Shown one piece after another: positions 723 to 13,031 of a stretch of DNA of 39,299 nt (the first letter of the stretch is position 1; each line of letters starts with the position of its first letter). The stretch comes from a virus. The DNA is taken from the IMG/VR virus record IMGVR_UViG_3300017917_002267, positions 1 to 39,299 of that record; one strand, written 5' to 3'. The notes beneath the pieces are model-generated. The model was not told the DNA's origin. It saw only the letters and a program-made list of their open reading frames with translations, and did not search any database. A program made the translations under genes and the position numbers.

Positions 723-3773
<3,051 letters not shown>

Positions 3774-3781
<8 letters not shown>

Positions 3782-4175
3782 ATAACAGACCTAGCCTTTC
3801 TTTTACTTTAATAATGTCATCGTCTGTGCCGAATATTTCTACCCTGGCAATAACTGGTACTCCAGTCTTTTGTGCAATTAAGTCTGCAGCTTTGCAGTAA
3901 TTGTCACCAAAGTTTGTGTTTCCAAAACCCACTACGCCACGTAGTAGGTCTCTGTTTTCTTTGATATTAAGAAAACTTTTAACCTGCCTTGGTATTGCGG
4001 ATCTGTCAGAACCTCCGCCATAAGTTGGAACCATCAGAACATATTCATTTTTTGCATAAAGTGGTGAAGCAGGATCCCACTTTATTGGAATACGGATGGA
4101 TGAAGAGTCCAACTTTTCTACAAATCTTTTTGTATTTCCTGAGTAGTTAGAAAAGTAAATGATTTGTATAGACAT
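3774..4175 (-). CDS. nrdI: Flavodoxin-like NrdI
   Basis: NrdI is the flavoprotein that supplies oxidant for assembling the dimanganese-tyrosyl cofactor of NrdF. At 133 aa it has the flavodoxin-type FMN phosphate loop near the N-terminus ([12 protein letters not shown]), the [11 protein letters not shown] loop and the [15 protein letters not shown] segment typical of the family. A clear AAGGAG lies 9 nt before the ATG. It opens the nrdI-nrdE-nrdF run and is separated from the upstream secreted-protein gene by 79 nt containing a strong hairpin. Its presence indicates the phage enzyme is a class Ib system. Confidence 0.95.
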
Positions 4176-5197: not shown

Positions 5198-6970
5198 TTA
5201 TAATAAATTGAATCTATCCAAATATTCTTTAACTTCTTTTGGCATAGGTTTATATTCTATCACATTTGCAGGTAGTTCGTCAACTTGCTTTGGACGATCT
5301 CTGAAAGTGTGAATCTCTACTTCAAGGTTTTGATCTCTTGGCGTATGAGAAATTGCTCCAAAGATTGCTCCGCAGACGGCATCTGCAAGGTCTTTAGAAA
5401 GTTTTCTAGGGTGATCAACACGATTATTTTTCATAATCTTTAGCTCAGTTAATTCTTCAAACAAAAGCTCAATGGCTGGCATAGCAAGTCTTTCTTCATA
5501 TATTAACATTGCCATATCTTCATAATGTTTTTTAGCTACAGAAACAGTTTCAGTTCTCATTCCAACTTGTTTTAATTCATTCTGTATATCAAAAGATTGC
5601 CAGCGGTCAAATGATACCATGCCGATATCAAATCCCTGCCTTCTTAAATTTTGAATCCACTGCTTTACTTCTGAAAGATTTACTGGCCCCTCTATTCTTG
5701 GTTCCCAATAAACAACTGCATCTACAATTACCATTGGAACCACCTGTTCATAATCTTTCATTACTTGAACAGATACCCACTTTTCTACGTGTGCAATTGC
5801 TACAGCACACTTGTCATGTTTTTGTGCAAGGTCAGCATGGACAAAATATTTTTTAGTTGGGTCTGGCTTGAAAGTTTCATCAAATCTTTTAGATGAGTCA
5901 ATCGGGTTTCTAATAGTCATGCAGGCACGAACTTTATCCCTTTGTTTAAAAAATGCATCAGACGCAAAGGTTGGAACACAAGCAAAACGTTGCATCGCAT
6001 CGCCCATATCAGTATAAAATGCTAACTTGAAATCATCAATTTTCCTAGTTGGGTTTACAACCCAGGTTGGTCTTTTAAGTGCAAAAACACCAGGATATTT
6101 ATATGATGTGATGGTATCCTCATCCCATTCAATTTCTAGAGAATTTCCCTCTGCATCTTCTGGTAAATCTGGATTCATGATAAACTTATGAGTTTTTGTT
6201 ATAACATCCTTTTCTGCAATTACTGCATCATATCTAGTTGATATAAAGTCTCCAGGAAAACGTGGGAATGATAGTAGTGCTACTTTTCCAAGATCTGGAA
6301 AACGAGAATCTACAGAGGCACGGAACGCCTTATAAATATTATCTGCCGTTTTTCCCTGATCATTGCCAGTGCCAATCTCTGTAGCAAATCCAGATATCTC
6401 ATCAAGAACTGCAAGGATTAGGTTAAGTCCTTCGTGTGATTCTCGCTCAGAATGTCCAGAGTAAACTGTGATCGATTTATCAAACTCAATCGATTCTGCC
6501 TTGGGATTATACTTTCCTGCAAACCATGGAGACTTTTCTATCTTTGTTTTAAATCCTTTGAAGAAAACATTTTTAGCTTGCTGAGCATTGATAGCCACAT
6601 TAATGATATCAATCGCATCGCCACTTGGTTTGCCGAAATACCTTGCTGGGTCTTTAAGACAAAGGAGTTTGTATACGATATAAGAACACGCAACAGTAGA
6701 CGTGAAATCCTTGCCAGATCCCTTCCCAAGTTGAAGAATAACTTCATTTTTTGTGTATTTTTTATAGTATTTTGTTCCATCTTCTTCTCCCATTAAAGTA
6801 ATAAGATCTTCAAGCTTATAAATTTGACTCATCGCCTCAACAATATCATACTGAATATCAGATAGTGGTGGCTGAGCTAAGTACGCTTCGCCCTCAACAA
6901 AGGTTTTTGCATCTACAGGATATTCCTCAAAGTTATCATCCTTTAAAACTTCTAAAAATTCATCAAACAT
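5198..6970 (-). CDS. terL: Terminase large subunit
   Basis: This is the DNA-packaging motor and nuclease that cuts concatemers and fills proheads. The Walker A motif LGKGSGKDF has its lysine near residue 87, and Walker B LILAVLDE has D190 and E191. A coupling-type segment follows. The C-terminal half holds an RNase H-like nuclease: FVHADLAQKHDKCAVA (first acid, about residue 380), VSFDRWQS in the middle, and LADAVCGAIFGA near the end. The length (590 aa) is usual for a large terminase. I prefer the ATG at 6970, which overlaps the upstream oxygenase stop as TAATG, over an in-frame TTG at 6979. It lies far downstream of the tail genes and after the replication block. The start of the secreted Ig-like gene follows 16 nt later. 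Confidence 0.93.
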   Translation of the reverse strand: MFDEFLEVLKDDNFEEYPVDAKTFVEGEAYLAQPPLSDIQYDIVEAMSQIYKLEDLITLMGEEDGTKYYKKYTKNEVILQLGKGSGKDFTSTVACSYIVYKLLCLKDPARYFGKPSGDAIDIINVAINAQQAKNVFFKGFKTKIEKSPWFAGKYNPKAESIEFDKSITVYSGHSERESHEGLNLILAVLDEISGFATEIGTGNDQGKTADNIYKAFRASVDSRFPDLGKVALLSFPRFPGDFISTRYDAVIAEKDVITKTHKFIMNPDLPEDAEGNSLEIEWDEDTITSYKYPGVFALKRPTWVVNPTRKIDDFKLAFYTDMGDAMQRFACVPTFASDAFFKQRDKVRACMTIRNPIDSSKRFDETFKPDPTKKYFVHADLAQKHDKCAVAIAHVEKWVSVQVMKDYEQVVPMVIVDAVVYWEPRIEGPVNLSEVKQWIQNLRRQGFDIGMVSFDRWQSFDIQNELKQVGMRTETVSVAKKHYEDMAMLIYEERLAMPAIELLFEELTELKIMKNNRVDHPRKLSKDLADAVCGAIFGAISHTPRDQNLEVEIHTFRDRPKQVDELPANVIEYKPMPKEVKEYLDRFNLL

Positions 6971-7545
6971 TATCGCCAAAACCCTACAATCGCATATTTT
7001 GTTCCAGACTTAATGACATTAGCCGTATGGCGATACTCCTCTGAAGATGGGAAGACTATCATAGAGTTGCTCTCTGGCTTAATCGTAATACCTAAATTAG
7101 AAAAGAAGATTTCTCCTCCTTCATAATCATCGTTAAAGTAATAAACAGTAGAAAGCTTTCTTGGAAATTCTTCTGTAGCATCTGCATGATCTTTAAAGTA
7201 TTGGCCAGCAGTATACTTTACTACTTGATACCCCTCATGAGAAGTTAGAGACATTGGCCTTGAGCTTATGTACTCTGATTCACATTTATCAAATGATTCA
7301 TTCAAAATTTTACTAATGGCTTTAACATCATCACTATCATTTTCTGATGTTTCAAATGGAACGTATTTAACAGATACATCTCTTATTGGGCCCTCATCTG
7401 CATAATCTTTATATCTTGATGCAGCTACGCCCCCCTGATCCCAACCCTCAGCAATATTTTCTATCAATTCTAAAATAGCTTTAGGATTTTCTAAAACATT
7501 TCTATACACAACAATATTGTGAGTAATATCTTCTATCTTCATCAT
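6970..7545 (-). CDS. 2OG-Fe(II) oxygenase, prolyl-4-hydroxylase type
   Basis: This 191-aa protein has a double-stranded beta-helix oxygenase core. The iron triad is H120 and D122 in YFKDHADA and H173 in EYRHTANV, with K183 in SGTKYAIVGFW placed to bind 2-oxoglutarate. The segment STVYYFNDDYEGGEIFF is characteristic of the P4H-type family common in phages. It probably hydroxylates a protein side chain or nucleic acid; the substrate cannot be read from sequence. It is embedded between the small and large terminase genes, overlapping both. GGAGG lies just upstream, and the second ATG (7542) has the better spacing. It is only distantly like the three tandem oxygenases at 10709-12739, which use Arg instead of Lys. 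Confidence 0.9.
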   Translation of the reverse strand: MMKIEDITHNIVVYRNVLENPKAILELIENIAEGWDQGGVAASRYKDYADEGPIRDVSVKYVPFETSENDSDDVKAISKILNESFDKCESEYISSRPMSLTSHEGYQVVKYTAGQYFKDHADATEEFPRKLSTVYYFNDDYEGGEIFFSNLGITIKPESNSMIVFPSSEEYRHTANVIKSGTKYAIVGFWR

Positions 7546-8075
7546 TCCTCCGCAACAACAGTTAGAACCTGTTTTCCATTGGACACTTCGGATAGTCTTC
7601 TCATAATTTCATCACGAATCTGTGGATATTCTGATGCTATATCACGCAAAATATTAATAAGCACTTCCTGTTTGCGTTCAATCTCAATCATCTCTTCTGC
7701 TAACTCTTTATTCTCTAGAAGTCCAGCCTTTTGCAGCATGTCAATTCTTCTAGCCTCAATATCCAAGACTAGCTTAATTGCAGAGGTTTTAGCACTCAGA
7801 TTAGCGGTTGTTGTAGCATCATCAATTACTTCATATGCCTTACTAATCAGTTTATTGTAATGTGTGTCTGCACCAACCAATGCTTCCTTTGCTCTAGCAC
7901 GAATTGCTGCATTATCAGAGGCCATCTGCCTCCACTCATTAATATATCCAACCACTTTTTGTCGTGGCATGTCTAATTCTTTAGAGATTTGGGTTGGATC
8001 GCTACCCTTTAAATATTCTTCAACTACCTTATTAACCTGATCTAAATGCTCTATAAGATTATCTTCTGCTGACAT
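7542..8075 (-). CDS. Probable terminase small subunit or HTH DNA-binding protein
   Basis: The 177-aa protein is mostly helical. Residues 20-50 form a helix-turn-helix (VEEYLKGSDPTQISKELDMPRQKVVGYINEW). The rest is long amphipathic helices rich in E, K and R, as in small terminases that bind the packaging site and oligomerise. It sits directly upstream of the oxygenase and the large terminase, the usual position. The call rests on context and fold type, not on a recognised family signature. It overlaps the upstream gene by 17 nt, with AGGGG before the ATG. Confidence 0.6.
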   Translation of the reverse strand: MSAEDNLIEHLDQVNKVVEEYLKGSDPTQISKELDMPRQKVVGYINEWRQMASDNAAIRARAKEALVGADTHYNKLISKAYEVIDDATTTANLSAKTSAIKLVLDIEARRIDMLQKAGLLENKELAEEMIEIERKQEVLINILRDIASEYPQIRDEIMRRLSEVSNGKQVLTVVAEE

Positions 8076-9340: not shown

Positions 9341-9611
9341 TTGACAACCTCTTCATATCTTTTAATGCACTAGATATTTCTGCTGGATTAATTATACATT
9401 TGCTACAAATTTGTTCATCATTGTATATAGAAAGATTTTGACCACAAGTCTTGCATTTTCTGACTTTTCCAGACCTTCTACTAATTCTAGATATCTGATA
9501 TCTTTCTGCAATTTTTTCTTTGGTTGCAAAATCCCTACACTCAGGAGAGCAGTAAATTTGATAAGAAACATTTGTTTCAAAAGTAGTATCACACCATTGA
9601 CAGTGTTTCAT
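9327..9611 (-). CDS. Double zinc-ribbon protein
   Basis: This 94-aa protein has two four-cysteine zinc sites: C4, C7, C21 and C25 (CQWC, then CSPEC), and C53, C56, C69 and C72 (CKTC, then CSKC). They are joined by a basic helix (AERYQISRISRRSGKVRK). The layout suggests a DNA- or RNA-binding zinc protein. It could also be a degenerate HNH-type nuclease, but I see no HNH histidines. It lies between the Cas4-like nuclease and the RuvC-like resolvase and overlaps both, so a role in the same DNA-processing step is plausible. Confidence 0.82.
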   Translation of the reverse strand: MKHCQWCDTTFETNVSYQIYCSPECRDFATKEKIAERYQISRISRRSGKVRKCKTCGQNLSIYNDEQICSKCIINPAEISSALKDMKRLSNGKD

Positions 9612-10395
9612 CTAAAGGCTCCAGTGACTTGATCTTTATGTCTCCAGAACCCGCTAGATCACAAGTAGCCCTGATTGGGCATGTCTTGCAAATTTTTGAA
9701 TTAGACCTATAGTTTTTCTCAGGCAGAGTTTTATTCTCCCATGCCTTTCTAACTGTTCTCATCCATTCAAAAGCGTTCTCTACCCACTTAAAAGAATACT
9801 CATTTAATTCTACAGGAAAAATCAAAAGTTCGTGATTATTTTTGTTTTCATAAATTAAAATTGCTTTATTTTTATTTAAAATCTTCATATAAATAAGGAG
9901 CTGAACTAAGTGTCCAACCTTTGGTTTGCCAGCTAGCTTCCTATATTCAAAGCCCTCATTTGGCATTGTTTTGATTTCTCCCAAAAGCTCGCTGCCTGCC
10001 CAATCCAAAATAACATCTCCGAATCCAAAAATTGGTGGATCACTATATGTAACCTTGAATTCTGAGTCTTTTAGGATTCCAGCATTTTGCATAGCCTCTT
10101 GAATACGCTCATGCGACTTTGTTCCAGCAGTCATGTTGGCCCCGCCATAGGCGTCTGCATTGTCAACAAATACGGCTCCTTCAAATGCTAGATACCAATA
10201 TCTTGGACACTCTCCATGAGAGTATGCGATTGTACTTGGGGCAAATGAATTTTTCTTTGTAAACTTATCTACACGATTAATAGTATAGCCAGAATTAATT
10301 TTTTCAATTAAGGCTTCTTTATCTACAAAGGATGGTTTTGATAAAAGCTTATCCTCTGTTTTTAGCATTATTTGTTGCAGCAAACTTTTTGTCAT
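9589..10395 (-). CDS. Cas4/RecB-like PD-(D/E)XK nuclease with Fe-S cysteines
   Basis: The 268-aa protein has all parts of a Cas4-type nuclease. H95 begins the motif set, D127 is in GFGDVILD, E140-I-K142 in LLGEIKTM forms the D-ExK metal site, and Q165 is in LVQLLIYM. Four cysteines (C63 in GECPRYWYL, then C236, C239 and C245 in CKTCPIRATC) match the family iron-sulfur cluster ligands. There is no CRISPR array or other cas gene here, so it is a stand-alone phage nuclease, probably acting in recombination or end processing with the RecA-like protein and resolvase. It has its own upstream promoter of classic form. Confidence 0.92.
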   Translation of the reverse strand: MTKSLLQQIMLKTEDKLLSKPSFVDKEALIEKINSGYTINRVDKFTKKNSFAPSTIAYSHGECPRYWYLAFEGAVFVDNADAYGGANMTAGTKSHERIQEAMQNAGILKDSEFKVTYSDPPIFGFGDVILDWAGSELLGEIKTMPNEGFEYRKLAGKPKVGHLVQLLIYMKILNKNKAILIYENKNNHELLIFPVELNEYSFKWVENAFEWMRTVRKAWENKTLPEKNYRSNSKICKTCPIRATCDLAGSGDIKIKSLEPLDETLSMV

Positions 10396-10420: not shown

Positions 10421-10449
10421 AGTATACACTATCTGGCGATGTATTTCAA
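10421..10449 (-). promoter_or_regulatory. Sigma70-type promoter TTGAAA-17-TATACT before the Cas4-like gene
   Basis: On the minus strand TTGAAA (10449-10444) and TATACT (10426-10421) are separated by exactly 17 nt. Transcription would start near 10413, giving an 18-nt leader with a GA-rich GAAAAGAG stretch before the ATG at 10395. The -10 end (TAGTGTATACT, 10431-10421) is identical over 11 nt to the sequence before the tail chaperone gene at 38776. Confidence 0.6.
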
Positions 10450-10728
10450 CGCTGATACCAAGTTATTAATAGACTCTGCTGCTGTGTAGTAAAGGTTTTT
10501 CTTTCCCCTGTCACTTTTGTCAACATTAGCCATCCATGTTGCTTTAAATGCCATTTTTGCTGCAATGGCTTGCAATCTAACTATTTCTACAGTAACAATG
10601 TTTAGCGGAATATCTGGTTTTAAAATTACTTTAGCAATAAAGGTAAGAGCTGTATTTAGCTCTTCGTCATTCATGTACTCCGCAATTTCTGATAACCCAT
10701 TAATTGATTCAATTGTTGTTTGTTCCAT
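10429..10728 (-). CDS. Conserved-looking helical phage protein, unknown function
   Basis: This is a 99-aa all-helical protein: an acidic N-terminus (SEIAEYMNDEELNTAL), a central hydrophobic helix around LKPDIPLNIVTVEIVRLQAIAAKMAFKA, and a C-terminal KKNLYYTAAESINNLVSALKYIAR segment. I have the impression of similar small proteins next to RecB- or Cas4-like nucleases in other phages, but I cannot name a family. It starts inside the end of the third tandem oxygenase (20 nt overlap) and ends just before the Cas4-like gene. The -35 and -10 of that gene's promoter overlap its last codons and stop. GGAAAG lies upstream of the ATG. Confidence 0.82.
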   Translation of the reverse strand: MEQTTIESINGLSEIAEYMNDEELNTALTFIAKVILKPDIPLNIVTVEIVRLQAIAAKMAFKATWMANVDKSDRGKKNLYYTAAESINNLVSALKYIAR

Positions 10729-11509
10729 TTTTTATCTTTCCGTGATTATGTTCATTAATACCTATTTGTAAGCCTAATTCGTTATAAAGATTCCATGCCT
10801 CAATAAACTCTGATCGTGTTTTAAGATCTGCCATGTATTCGTTTATCCTGTCTTGGTGAAATCTTGGGTCTAGTGGATCCATGCCATTAGCTTGGAATCT
10901 CCAGTCATCAAGTGGTGAGTAATCGAAAGTCAAAATTTCACAGAAATCTCCCTCCCGCCACTCTCTTTTTGGTCTCCAATGAACCTGATTGATGGCACTA
11001 AAAACTAAGGCATCTCCAGCTTTAAGGTCATACGCCTTATTGTCTACATAAATTTCCCAATCAATATTAGTATCTAAGCAATAATTAAAAGTCACTAGGG
11101 TATTTGCACTATCAATATGCGGTGGCAAGGATGGAAAATATCTATTTTCACCATACTTCATATTATAGTCTAAATAGCTGTAATGTGCAAGCTTAATTGG
11201 CTCCTTGTAAGCTGGCAAAACATAAGAATTCATAACCTCTTCTGCCTCTTTAGTACATTCAAACTCAATTACCATTCTTGACATATGCGTCATTATTCGT
11301 GGATCAAATCGATCCATGCTCATAAACTCTTCTTTATCCCCAGCAGCTGGCATTGAGGCTAGTGGCCTATTGTTTCTGGAATCTTCGACTATTTTCCTAA
11401 GGTCTGCAACCTGTTGATCAGTAAAGGGTTTTTCTACATAAAACGGTATATCTACATTAAATTTATCAAAGCCAGACAAATAATCATGCATTCCATCAAT
11501 TTTGGACAT
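10709..11509 (-). CDS. 2OG-Fe(II) oxygenase, third of a tandem trio
   Basis: This 266-aa protein has the oxygenase triad H131 and D133 (PPHIDSANTLVTFNYCL) and H177 (NQVHWRP). R179 is two residues after the distal His, as in its two upstream paralogues. The pattern W.IYVD...Y.L..GDALVFSA..QVHWR is shared with them. An extra N-terminal 60 residues and a longer C-terminus (residues 205-266) distinguish it. The substrate is unknown. Soluble, with no signal peptide. GAGGAG precedes the ATG, and the gene overlaps the end of the second oxygenase by 14 nt, so the trio is coupled. It probably arose by tandem duplication. Confidence 0.87.
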   Translation of the reverse strand: MSKIDGMHDYLSGFDKFNVDIPFYVEKPFTDQQVADLRKIVEDSRNNRPLASMPAAGDKEEFMSMDRFDPRIMTHMSRMVIEFECTKEAEEVMNSYVLPAYKEPIKLAHYSYLDYNMKYGENRYFPSLPPHIDSANTLVTFNYCLDTNIDWEIYVDNKAYDLKAGDALVFSAINQVHWRPKREWREGDFCEILTFDYSPLDDWRFQANGMDPLDPRFHQDRINEYMADLKTRSEFIEAWNLYNELGLQIGINEHNHGKIKNGTNNN

Positions 11510-12101
11510 TGCTCAACTCCTCATTATAAGTTTTTGTATACTTTTCTATTTTAGCTTCCACAACACTCTTTTCTTCCTCTGAATATTTGGCAGAATTAAT
11601 TTTTCTTAAATGGAAAAATATCATGTCAATATATTCATCATCTTCAAAAATCTTTGGCTTTCTCCAATGAACTTGATGAGTTCCACTAAATGTTAGGGCT
11701 TGGTTATTTTTTAAAGAAAAATCTTTTTCTTCTACGACAAGATCCCATTGGGTATTTCCACCAACCTGGTAATCAAATGTAAATCTGGGTTCTTCAAATG
11801 TAAGATCACAATGTGGAATTAGATTTGGTCGTAATAATGTGTTTGATTCTTCATCAAAAACATTTTTATATCTTGCAAACTGGTATTCTGCTATCTCTAA
11901 ATTATCTTGTCCAGAAATTTCTTCGCAATAGGAAATAATCTTGCGCTCTATATCTTGTGGTAAATTAAAGTCAGAAATTGTTTGTGTAAAAAATTTCATA
12001 ACGTAAGTGTTATTTGGATTTTCTAAAATTGAATAGATTCTAGAAATTTCTTCTTCAGAAAGAACTTCTGTTACGATTATATTTTTTTCATCAGTTTTCA
12101 T
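11496..12101 (-). CDS. 2OG-Fe(II) oxygenase, second of a tandem trio
   Basis: This 201-aa protein has iron ligands H97 and D99 (IPHCDLTFEEPRFTFDYQV) and H145 (THQVHWRKP), with R147 following. It is the most compact of the trio, with the core and little else. It shares with the first copy the frame H.D.....R.TFD.Q......W.L.V....F.L...AL.F.GT.Q.HWR and the downstream DMIF.HL segment. The start ATG overlaps the upstream stop (ATGA). A TATAAT lies 3 nt before this ATG, but that spacing does not fit a start of transcription at or before the codon. The substrate is unknown. Confidence 0.88.
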   Translation of the reverse strand: MKTDEKNIIVTEVLSEEEISRIYSILENPNNTYVMKFFTQTISDFNLPQDIERKIISYCEEISGQDNLEIAEYQFARYKNVFDEESNTLLRPNLIPHCDLTFEEPRFTFDYQVGGNTQWDLVVEEKDFSLKNNQALTFSGTHQVHWRKPKIFEDDEYIDMIFFHLRKINSAKYSEEEKSVVEAKIEKYTKTYNEELSNVQN

Positions 12102-12739
12102 ATCATTATATTCTCATTGCTAATACCTAATCTGTCCATTAAGAATATAGCTCTTTCTTCTAAAATGTCTTTCTGTCCATCATCCAGTGGCTTTTCTGTA
12201 ACAAAATTTAAATGACAAAAGATCATATCTATTTCAGCATCTCTTGCTATTTTTTTATTTTCTCGCCAATGAATTTGTTGAGTTCCAGCAAATGCCAATG
12301 CCTCATTATCATTTAATAAAAATCTTTCTCCCTCAACATATAAGGCCCATGGTTCACTTGCTCTTAATTGAATGTCAAAAGTTATTCTCTGGGTCTCTCT
12401 TGTATCATAATGCGGAAAAAGCTTACATTCATATCCAAATTTTGGGGAATACCTTGCAAACGAGTAGTCATATTTTAGATCAATATCTTCGCCTACGGCT
12501 TCTCTTGCCATCTTAGTGATTCGTTCTTCTACAGACGAAGAAAAGTGTATATCTGAAAGCCTATGCCCAGCCCATGGCTGCACCCTAGTGTTGCTATCTG
12601 GGTTTCTGTTTACTGCCTCATAAATCTCTTCGATATGTTCTGGTAGCAACACATTCTTGACTATCCTTGGCTTAAAGTCTTGATTACTGATAAATAGCTG
12701 AGATTCTACAAGCTTCTTATACTCATCAAATATTTCCAT
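12098..12739 (-). CDS. 2OG-Fe(II) oxygenase, first of a tandem trio
   Basis: This 213-aa protein has H110 and D112 (LFPHYDTRETQRITFDIQL) and H157 in TQQIHWRE, with R159 beyond it, the iron and cosubstrate framework of the 2OG oxygenase fold. I start it at the ATG at 12739, not at an in-frame start at 12760. TATAAT lies exactly 6 nt before this ATG and there is no Shine-Dalgarno, which predicts a leaderless transcript. The upstream region overlaps the stop of the nuclease-like gene. It heads the three-gene oxygenase run. No membrane or export signal is visible, so it acts in the cytoplasm. Confidence 0.88.
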   Translation of the reverse strand: MEIFDEYKKLVESQLFISNQDFKPRIVKNVLLPEHIEEIYEAVNRNPDSNTRVQPWAGHRLSDIHFSSSVEERITKMAREAVGEDIDLKYDYSFARYSPKFGYECKLFPHYDTRETQRITFDIQLRASEPWALYVEGERFLLNDNEALAFAGTQQIHWRENKKIARDAEIDMIFCHLNFVTEKPLDDGQKDILEERAIFLMDRLGISNENIMI

Positions 12740-12745
12740 GATACC

Positions 12746-12751
12746 ATTATA
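12746..12751 (-). promoter_or_regulatory. Leaderless-type -10 TATAAT before the oxygenase trio
   Basis: TATAAT at 12751-12746 is followed by 6 nt (GGTATC) and then ATG at 12739. No AGGAG-like site is present. The stop codon of the upstream gene lies inside the element. The expected start of transcription is at or next to the A of ATG. I see no convincing -35. Confidence 0.5.
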
Positions 12752-13031
12752 CATTATCAATTAACTGTTCTAGAATGGACATTTCAATAATTGCCAGTCT
12801 AGTTTTTATACCAGATTCCCCCAAAACAACTACTATGGCTGGATCGTTTCCGTTTCTAATGGCATCTGTAACTGCTTTTGCCCACACATCCTTATTTATA
12901 GTAAAGGATTTTCCGACTTCTTTAAAATCAATAGTGAAGTTTTCCCAGGAGGCATCGCCTTTATGAGTACCACGACCAGAATTTTTATGCTTTTTAGCCC
13001 CCAGCCTTTTGCTCTCGCCTCTTTCACTCAT
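12747..13031 (-). CDS. Possible PD-(D/E)XK junction nuclease
   Basis: This 94-aa protein has a basic N-terminus (SKRLGAKKHKNSGRGTHKGDA), then D26 and a D35-F-K37 motif in ENFTIDFKEVGKSFTI, a helix (KDVWAKAVTDAIRNG) and a strand (PAIVVVLGE). The order of D, DxK, KSFT, helix and PAIVV strand resembles small phage PD-(D/E)XK nucleases related to Holliday junction resolvases. The match is by pattern only. It lies between a zinc protein and the oxygenase trio in the recombination block, and its ATG overlaps the upstream gene's end. Confidence 0.6.
   Translation of the reverse strand: MSERGESKRLGAKKHKNSGRGTHKGDASWENFTIDFKEVGKSFTINKDVWAKAVTDAIRNGNDPAIVVVLGESGIKTRLAIIEMSILEQLIDNV

Follow-up and report, generated by a model that had tools for sequence, protein, structure and literature searches.

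A distinct, widespread family of phage 2OG-Fe(II) oxygenases with an unusual active-site signature, organized in tandem arrays and misnamed ferrochelatase

What is the function of three adjacent, related oxygenase genes in a phage genome, and do their products act as one pathway? The question is raised by a locus within a 39,299-nucleotide stretch of viral DNA (IMG/VR record IMGVR_UViG_3300017917_002267), the whole of which was analysed and is called the window here. Three open reading frames, designated A, B, and C, are arranged head-to-tail on the minus strand (Table 1), and the short overlaps between neighbours (4 nt for A/B, 14 nt for B/C, and 20 nt for C and the next gene) agree with a previous sequence-only reading of the window, which had described three adjacent overlapping genes. 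Gene A starts with the ATG at 12739, with the TTG at 12760 as a mechanical alternative. The identities of the proteins in BLASTP comparisons are 37% for A and B (E 3e-31), 21% for B and C (E 1e-13), and 31% for A and C (E 2e-13). These E-values put the relationship far beyond chance, and, judged by their sequences, A, B, and C are paralogues. The motif frame previously proposed for the trio was retained in part: HxD, a tryptophan, and QxHWR are common to the three proteins, but R.TF is present in A and B only, C containing LVTF instead, and the motif given as W..YV is actually W..[YV]V across the trio.

Table 1. Features of the oxygenase locus and of other window regions discussed in the text
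Feature	Position	Strand	Remarks
Ribonucleotide reductase small and large subunits	723-4175	(-)	flavodoxin beside
PF13640-type 2OG-Fe(II) oxygenase, separate from the trio	6970-7545	(-)	no HxR past the distal His
Homologue of Streptomyces phage Coruscant putative RNA polymerase sigma factor	7542-8075	(-)	in 169 examined loci
Cas4-type exonuclease	9589-10395		follows PHROG 9818
PHROG 9818 protein	10429-10728	(-)	downstream boundary of the array
Oxygenase C	10709-11509	(-)	266 aa; HxD residues 131-133, HWR 177-179
Oxygenase B	11496-12101	(-)	201 aa; HxD residues 97-99, HWR 145-147
Oxygenase A	12098-12739	(-)	213 aa; HxD residues 110-112, HWR 157-159
TATAAT -10 element	12746-12751	(-)	leaderless, 6 nt upstream of the A start codon (ATG); shares sequence with the resolvase stop codon
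Holliday-junction resolvase-like protein (PHROG 2002)	12747-13031	(-)	upstream boundary of the array

AlphaFold2 models of A (pLDDT 97.5) and C (pLDDT 93.6) are predicted to contain the double-stranded beta-helix of 2OG-Fe(II) oxygenases. In Foldseek comparisons with the PDB, the best match of A is PHD2 (E 4.5e-7, TM ~0.52), and ALKBH6, NMAD-1, and OGFOD1 were also identified. The top matches of C are EvdMO1, PiuC, a Shewanella oxygenase, SnoN, a Bacillus prolyl 4-hydroxylase, and AviO1. TET/JBP structures are absent from the 50 best PDB matches listed for A and for C. A library of viral structures returned the 'ferrochelatase' E3SI68 of cyanophage S-SM1 as match number 8. The predicted fold of A and C, combined with the invariant HxD...HxR residues described below, supports the assignment of the trio to the 2OG-Fe(II) oxygenases made in the sequence-only reading.

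Sequence profiles separate the three proteins from the described members of this superfamily. No Pfam family scored above the cut-off for A, B, or C. The Tet_JBP profile did not match the trio or 24 members of the family, and the AlkB-type profile 2OG-FeII_Oxy_2 (PF13532) did not match A, B, or C, so that the resemblance to AlkB is in the fold only. The PHD and prolyl 4-hydroxylase profiles PF13640, PF13661, and PF13759 gave no match either, and the Asp/Asn beta-hydroxylase profile PF05118 gave only sub-threshold matches (E 0.026-0.11). The likeness to the solved PHD2/prolyl 4-hydroxylase and AlkB-type enzymes consists of the predicted double-stranded beta-helix and the HxD...H triad, at TM ~0.5 and 10-15% identity. 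The profile that matches all three proteins is PHROG 2954, annotated as 'ferrochelatase' (E 3e-7 for C, 2e-4 for A, and 1.3e-3 for B), and it is also matched by 20 of the 24 family members. A, B, and C are members of a single family that has the 2OG-Fe(II) oxygenase fold but no Pfam entry; it is named HWR oxygenases here.

Searches of viral contigs that used the trio, C, and A as seeds identified 226, 205, and 64 relatives, and the top 80, 80, and 64 loci were taken forward; an iterated profile collected 631 family ORFs, 337 of them distinct. Single-sequence scans, with B alone against viral contigs and with B and C directly against phage isolates, found nothing, indicating that alignments are needed to detect the relatives. 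HxD...HxR is present in all 327 distinct members examined, in 261 of them in the HWR form. The HxR spacing was sought by pattern, and an independent profile (HMM) alignment placed the same residues at at least 99%. The iron triad HxD...H is also seen in alignments of 24 and 75 rows, and no loss of it was found among the relatives. An arginine at position +2 of the distal histidine is invariant in the 327 members, and no lysine or arginine is conserved at +9 to +14. In 2OG oxygenases, the carboxylate of 2OG is commonly bound by a basic residue about +9 to +14 past the distal histidine, at +9 in PHD2, although the position of this residue differs between subfamilies. We infer that 2OG is held here by the +2 arginine and an invariant tyrosine preceding HxD, instead of by the basic residue that is usual on the last strand.

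In a tree of 166 representatives, A, B, and C of the window each fall into a clade of their own, together with orthologues from many other phages. The duplication is therefore old, and the earlier suggestion of duplication followed by divergence agrees with this topology. The family proteins are strongly acidic (median pI ~5.1). Two HWR oxygenase domains are joined in one chain in two loci (L009:2244-3446 and L030:3884-5050). A pattern scan of limited sensitivity detected no cellular relatives in 84,980 genomes.

The family extends to cultured marine phages, where it carries another name. The S-SM1 protein SSM1_061 has relatives in 150 records of Synechococcus, Prochlorococcus, and Pelagibacter phages, and most of them, among the matches listed, are annotated as ferrochelatase. 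PHROG 2954, or its pelagiphage members, have accordingly been read as ferrochelatase genes (PMC11561400, PMC9599517). Eight such 'ferrochelatase' proteins from seven phages retain HxD, W, and HWR, and a profile built from the eight aligns with the window family with a probability of 98.1% (E 7.7e-14) in a profile-profile comparison. PF00762, the profile of true ferrochelatases, does not match the labelled proteins, and PF00762 proteins are absent from ten whole phage records, whereas a control search was positive in 8 of 14 genomes. The cyanophage and pelagiphage proteins named 'ferrochelatase' in PHROG 2954 thus belong to the HWR oxygenase family, and the label is wrong. PHROG 2954 corresponds to gene cluster 615 of T4-like cyanophages (S-SM1 SSM1_060/061), in which HxD, Trp, and HWR are likewise invariant. 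The S-SM1 genes also form a tandem pair, located inside a run of 2OG oxygenases; the same run includes a 4Fe-4S ferredoxin-like protein (SSM1_058, L004:1843-2541). A fusion protein of cyanophage ACG-2014f combines an HWR domain with a PF13640 oxygenase domain. Compared with the window array, the marine members are single genes or pairs at another genome position, and their identity to the window proteins is ~15-25%.

The array of the window occupies a fixed site. Arrays of one to five genes are inserted between the gene for the resolvase and those for the PHROG 9818 protein and Cas4. Of 90 distinct complete arrays, 88 contain C, 77 contain B, and 33 contain A; B and C are direct neighbours in 69, an uninterrupted A-B-C run is seen in 32, and array size varies from singles and pairs to five genes; because the loci were found through family members, these proportions describe arrays and not phages. 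C is the most constant array member. The optional and variable content speaks against a pathway of three obligatory steps, and the serial scheme proposed in the sequence-only reading was rejected on this basis. Up to ten family members are encoded per phage, at several sites.

A survey seeded with Cas4, which was blind to the oxygenases, identified 75 relatives with a complete site. The site is occupied by an array in nine of them and array-free in 66, with the same gene order, so the array is an optional cassette in a phage recombination operon. Most of the array-free sites contain a gap of ~27 bp, and the others a gene for an exonuclease-like protein of 202-210 aa. This slot gene was considered as a further oxygenase and rejected; it reads by eye as a DnaQ/DEDD-type exonuclease, and is found instead of, or besides, the array (L228:3838-4452, L285:6074-6682, and similar loci). 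The site of the Streptomyces phages BillNye and Coruscant contains no oxygenase. Terminase and PolIII alpha of the window share 54-57% identity with their counterparts in Streptomyces phages (Stanwilliamsviridae), and the gene order DnaB-primase-SSB-PolIII-RecA-resolvase-PHROG 9818-Cas4-RuvC...terminase is common to both, which suggests that the window phage may have an actinobacterial host.

The array had been proposed to possess its own leaderless-type promoter. The -10 element before A is perfect and leaderless. Of 117 first array genes, 65 have a TATAAT 5-7 nt before the start ATG, where 0.2 would be expected, compared with 22 of 202 inner array genes and 1 of 762 core genes. However, array-free relatives have the same TATAAT over the resolvase stop codon, followed by a Shine-Dalgarno leader of ~26 nt with an AAGGA-like site and then by PHROG 9818. 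The element is thus not the array's own, and the array is best read as inserted between the -10 element and the old leader.

What the HWR oxygenases modify was considered in the light of the gene company of the family. A, B, and C would be Fe(II)/2-oxoglutarate-dependent hydroxylases, the paralogues acting in parallel on different substrates rather than in series. They would place hydroxyl groups on virion (fibre or tail) proteins or on their glycans, and some of these hydroxyls would then be capped by O-carbamoyl-, sulfo-, and glycosyltransferases of the same phages. This reading is favoured tentatively, at somewhat below an even chance. The parallel substrates, for which the old separate clades and the combinatorial array content speak, and the hydroxylation of virions, preferred because of the gene company, are its least certain parts. 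Hydroxylation of different proteins, one of the candidates named earlier, is close to this reading, which is our best guess.

The gene company was determined in 50 long contigs, 38 positive for the family and 12 controls (six of them long); one control (G011) contains a single family member outside the array site. PF13640 oxygenases (PHROG 61), which belong to the same superfamily and occur in the same phages but form a separate sequence family, are present in 37 of the 38 positive contigs and in 1 of the 12 controls. The O-carbamoyltransferase PF02543 is encoded in 24 of the 38 positive contigs and in none of the 12 controls (p 1e-4; 0/6 and p 0.005 for the long controls only), although, because the contigs are related and none is known to be complete, such co-occurrence tests overstate independence. 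O-carbamoyltransferases modify hydroxyl groups, and a representative of the PF02543 proteins matches novobiocin O-carbamoyltransferase (E 2.9e-55). In 16 of the 24 contigs, PF02543 is at most 1.1 kb from a PF13640 oxygenase, where random placement would give 2.5; such neighbours, a possible hydroxylate-then-carbamoylate pair, are seen in G016, G017, G018, G019, G022, G034, and others. Neighbouring genes of cyanophage P-RSM4 encode a Nol-like carbamoyltransferase, a 2OG oxygenase, and an HWR oxygenase. A sulfotransferase-like protein, with a weak PDB match (E 0.011), was found in five of seven positive and none of four negative contigs. The enrichment of PF11397 glycosyltransferases in positive contigs is not significant, and a 337 aa protein exclusive to positive contigs resembles PF11397 by eye, whereas phmmer against the PDB gave nothing. 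In G014, two PF00590 tetrapyrrole-methylase-family proteins (L312:4094-4849 and 6482-7246) are encoded near an A-type oxygenase gene.

Several observations count against virion hydroxylation. The array is located among replication and recombination genes and not among structural genes; the adjacency to carbamoyltransferases is a property of PF13640 oxygenases, with the HWR family taking part only in P-RSM4; and positive contigs show no enrichment of collagen-like proteins, and none of PF11397 glycosyltransferases that reaches significance. In favour of the reading, family members at second sites are near collagen-like G-X-P-G fibre genes in about ten contigs. However, collagen repeats occur in 28 of 38 positive contigs and 5 of 12 controls (5 of the 6 long negatives), with more copies in the negatives, and G015, the nearest long relative of the window, encodes no collagen-like proteins. 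Collagen as the substrate was therefore given up and is retained as no more than one candidate. In the array-free relatives L319-L337 (G001, G002, G003, G012), as many as 14 collagen-repeat matches were counted, and the proteins that contain them reach ~1000 aa. A broader proposal, that HWR arrays and PF13640 oxygenases form a modular toolkit hydroxylating virion proteins or glycans, with O-carbamoyl-, sulfo-, and glycosyltransferases capping the products, is possible but rather doubtful.

The array genes diverge rapidly compared with their flanks. In the closest relatives, RecA is 87-88%, PHROG 9818 94-96%, and Cas4 87-88% identical to the window, whereas B is only 51-58% and C 61-78% identical. 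This divergence, like the optional insertion, was also counted for the favoured reading of hydroxylation on different substrates. An optional cassette of variable content that diverges quickly and has a consensus leaderless promoter has the pattern of host-facing accessory genes, and the oxygenases might modify host proteins, disarming defence or redirecting host machinery. Nevertheless, B and C are very constant array members, which is unusual for anti-defence cargo, and an association of the array with a defence target was not found. We regard such a role as unlikely.

The rapid divergence is also frequent in anti-restriction genes, and the array could protect the phage from restriction by oxidizing its DNA bases or free nucleotides in the manner of TET/JBP or thymidine hydroxylases. 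The surrounding replication and recombination block (PolIII alpha, SSB, RecA, resolvase, Cas4, RuvC) and the resemblance of the fold to AlkB homologues agree with this. However, the C5-DNA-methyltransferase PF00145 was present in none of the 50 related contigs, a scan covering phage-encoded enzymes only, and this weakens TET-like oxidation, which was set aside as the chemistry of the array. The lack of Pfam matches to TET/JBP or AlkB, the absence of TET/JBP structures from the best fold matches listed, and the optional, combinatorial array content also count against it, as does the acidity of the proteins, albeit weakly, since the SSB and helicase of this phage are likewise acidic. Oxidation of DNA bases or nucleotides has a low probability on this evidence, and the serial base oxidation suggested earlier is not supported by it, although thymine-based or free-nucleotide chemistry is still conceivable.

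Phages rich in 2OG oxygenases have been described before, and auxiliary metabolic roles have been proposed for such genes. S-SCSM1 encodes 24 2OG oxygenases, whose function was not investigated (PMC9602691), and S-CREM1 encodes ten (PMC9964418). Like the phages with HWR oxygenases, they contain many enzymes of low mutual identity, but the genes are divided among pfam13640, 13661, 13759, 05721, and TIGR02466, and the portions of these two reports considered here do not single out the Pfam-less HWR family or its arrays (PMC9602691, PMC9964418). As auxiliary metabolic genes, the HWR oxygenases would adjust the 2-oxoglutarate, iron, or small-molecule metabolism of the infected host, in line with published proposals on cyanophage 2OG oxygenases (PMC9602691) and on the co-occurring 'ferrochelatase' of pelagiphages (PMC9599517, PMC11561400). 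The iron and heme argument depends on a label that fails, however, and up to ten fast-diverging paralogues per genome fit a diversity of substrates better than bulk consumption of 2OG. Together with the absence of cellular relatives at the sensitivity of the scan, this makes a metabolic role improbable. The missing basic residue at +9 to +14 might suggest that the proteins have lost oxygenase activity and serve as structural or inactive versions of the fold. This is very improbable, because the three iron ligands and the arginine are invariant in 327 of 327 sequences, which indicates selection for catalysis.

The HWR oxygenases are thus a distinct and widespread phage family in the 2OG-Fe(II) superfamily; it lacks a Pfam entry, and sequence comparison found no relative with a solved structure. 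Since the proteins labelled ferrochelatase belong to this family, ideas of phage iron and heme manipulation that rest on the label (PMC9599517, PMC11561400) need to be revisited. The presence of the family in cultured cyanophages and a pelagiphage makes the role of phage 2OG oxygenases directly testable. If the toolkit of hydroxylation and capping exists, it would provide phages with chemical coats that change quickly and thereby determine the host range or help to escape recognition.
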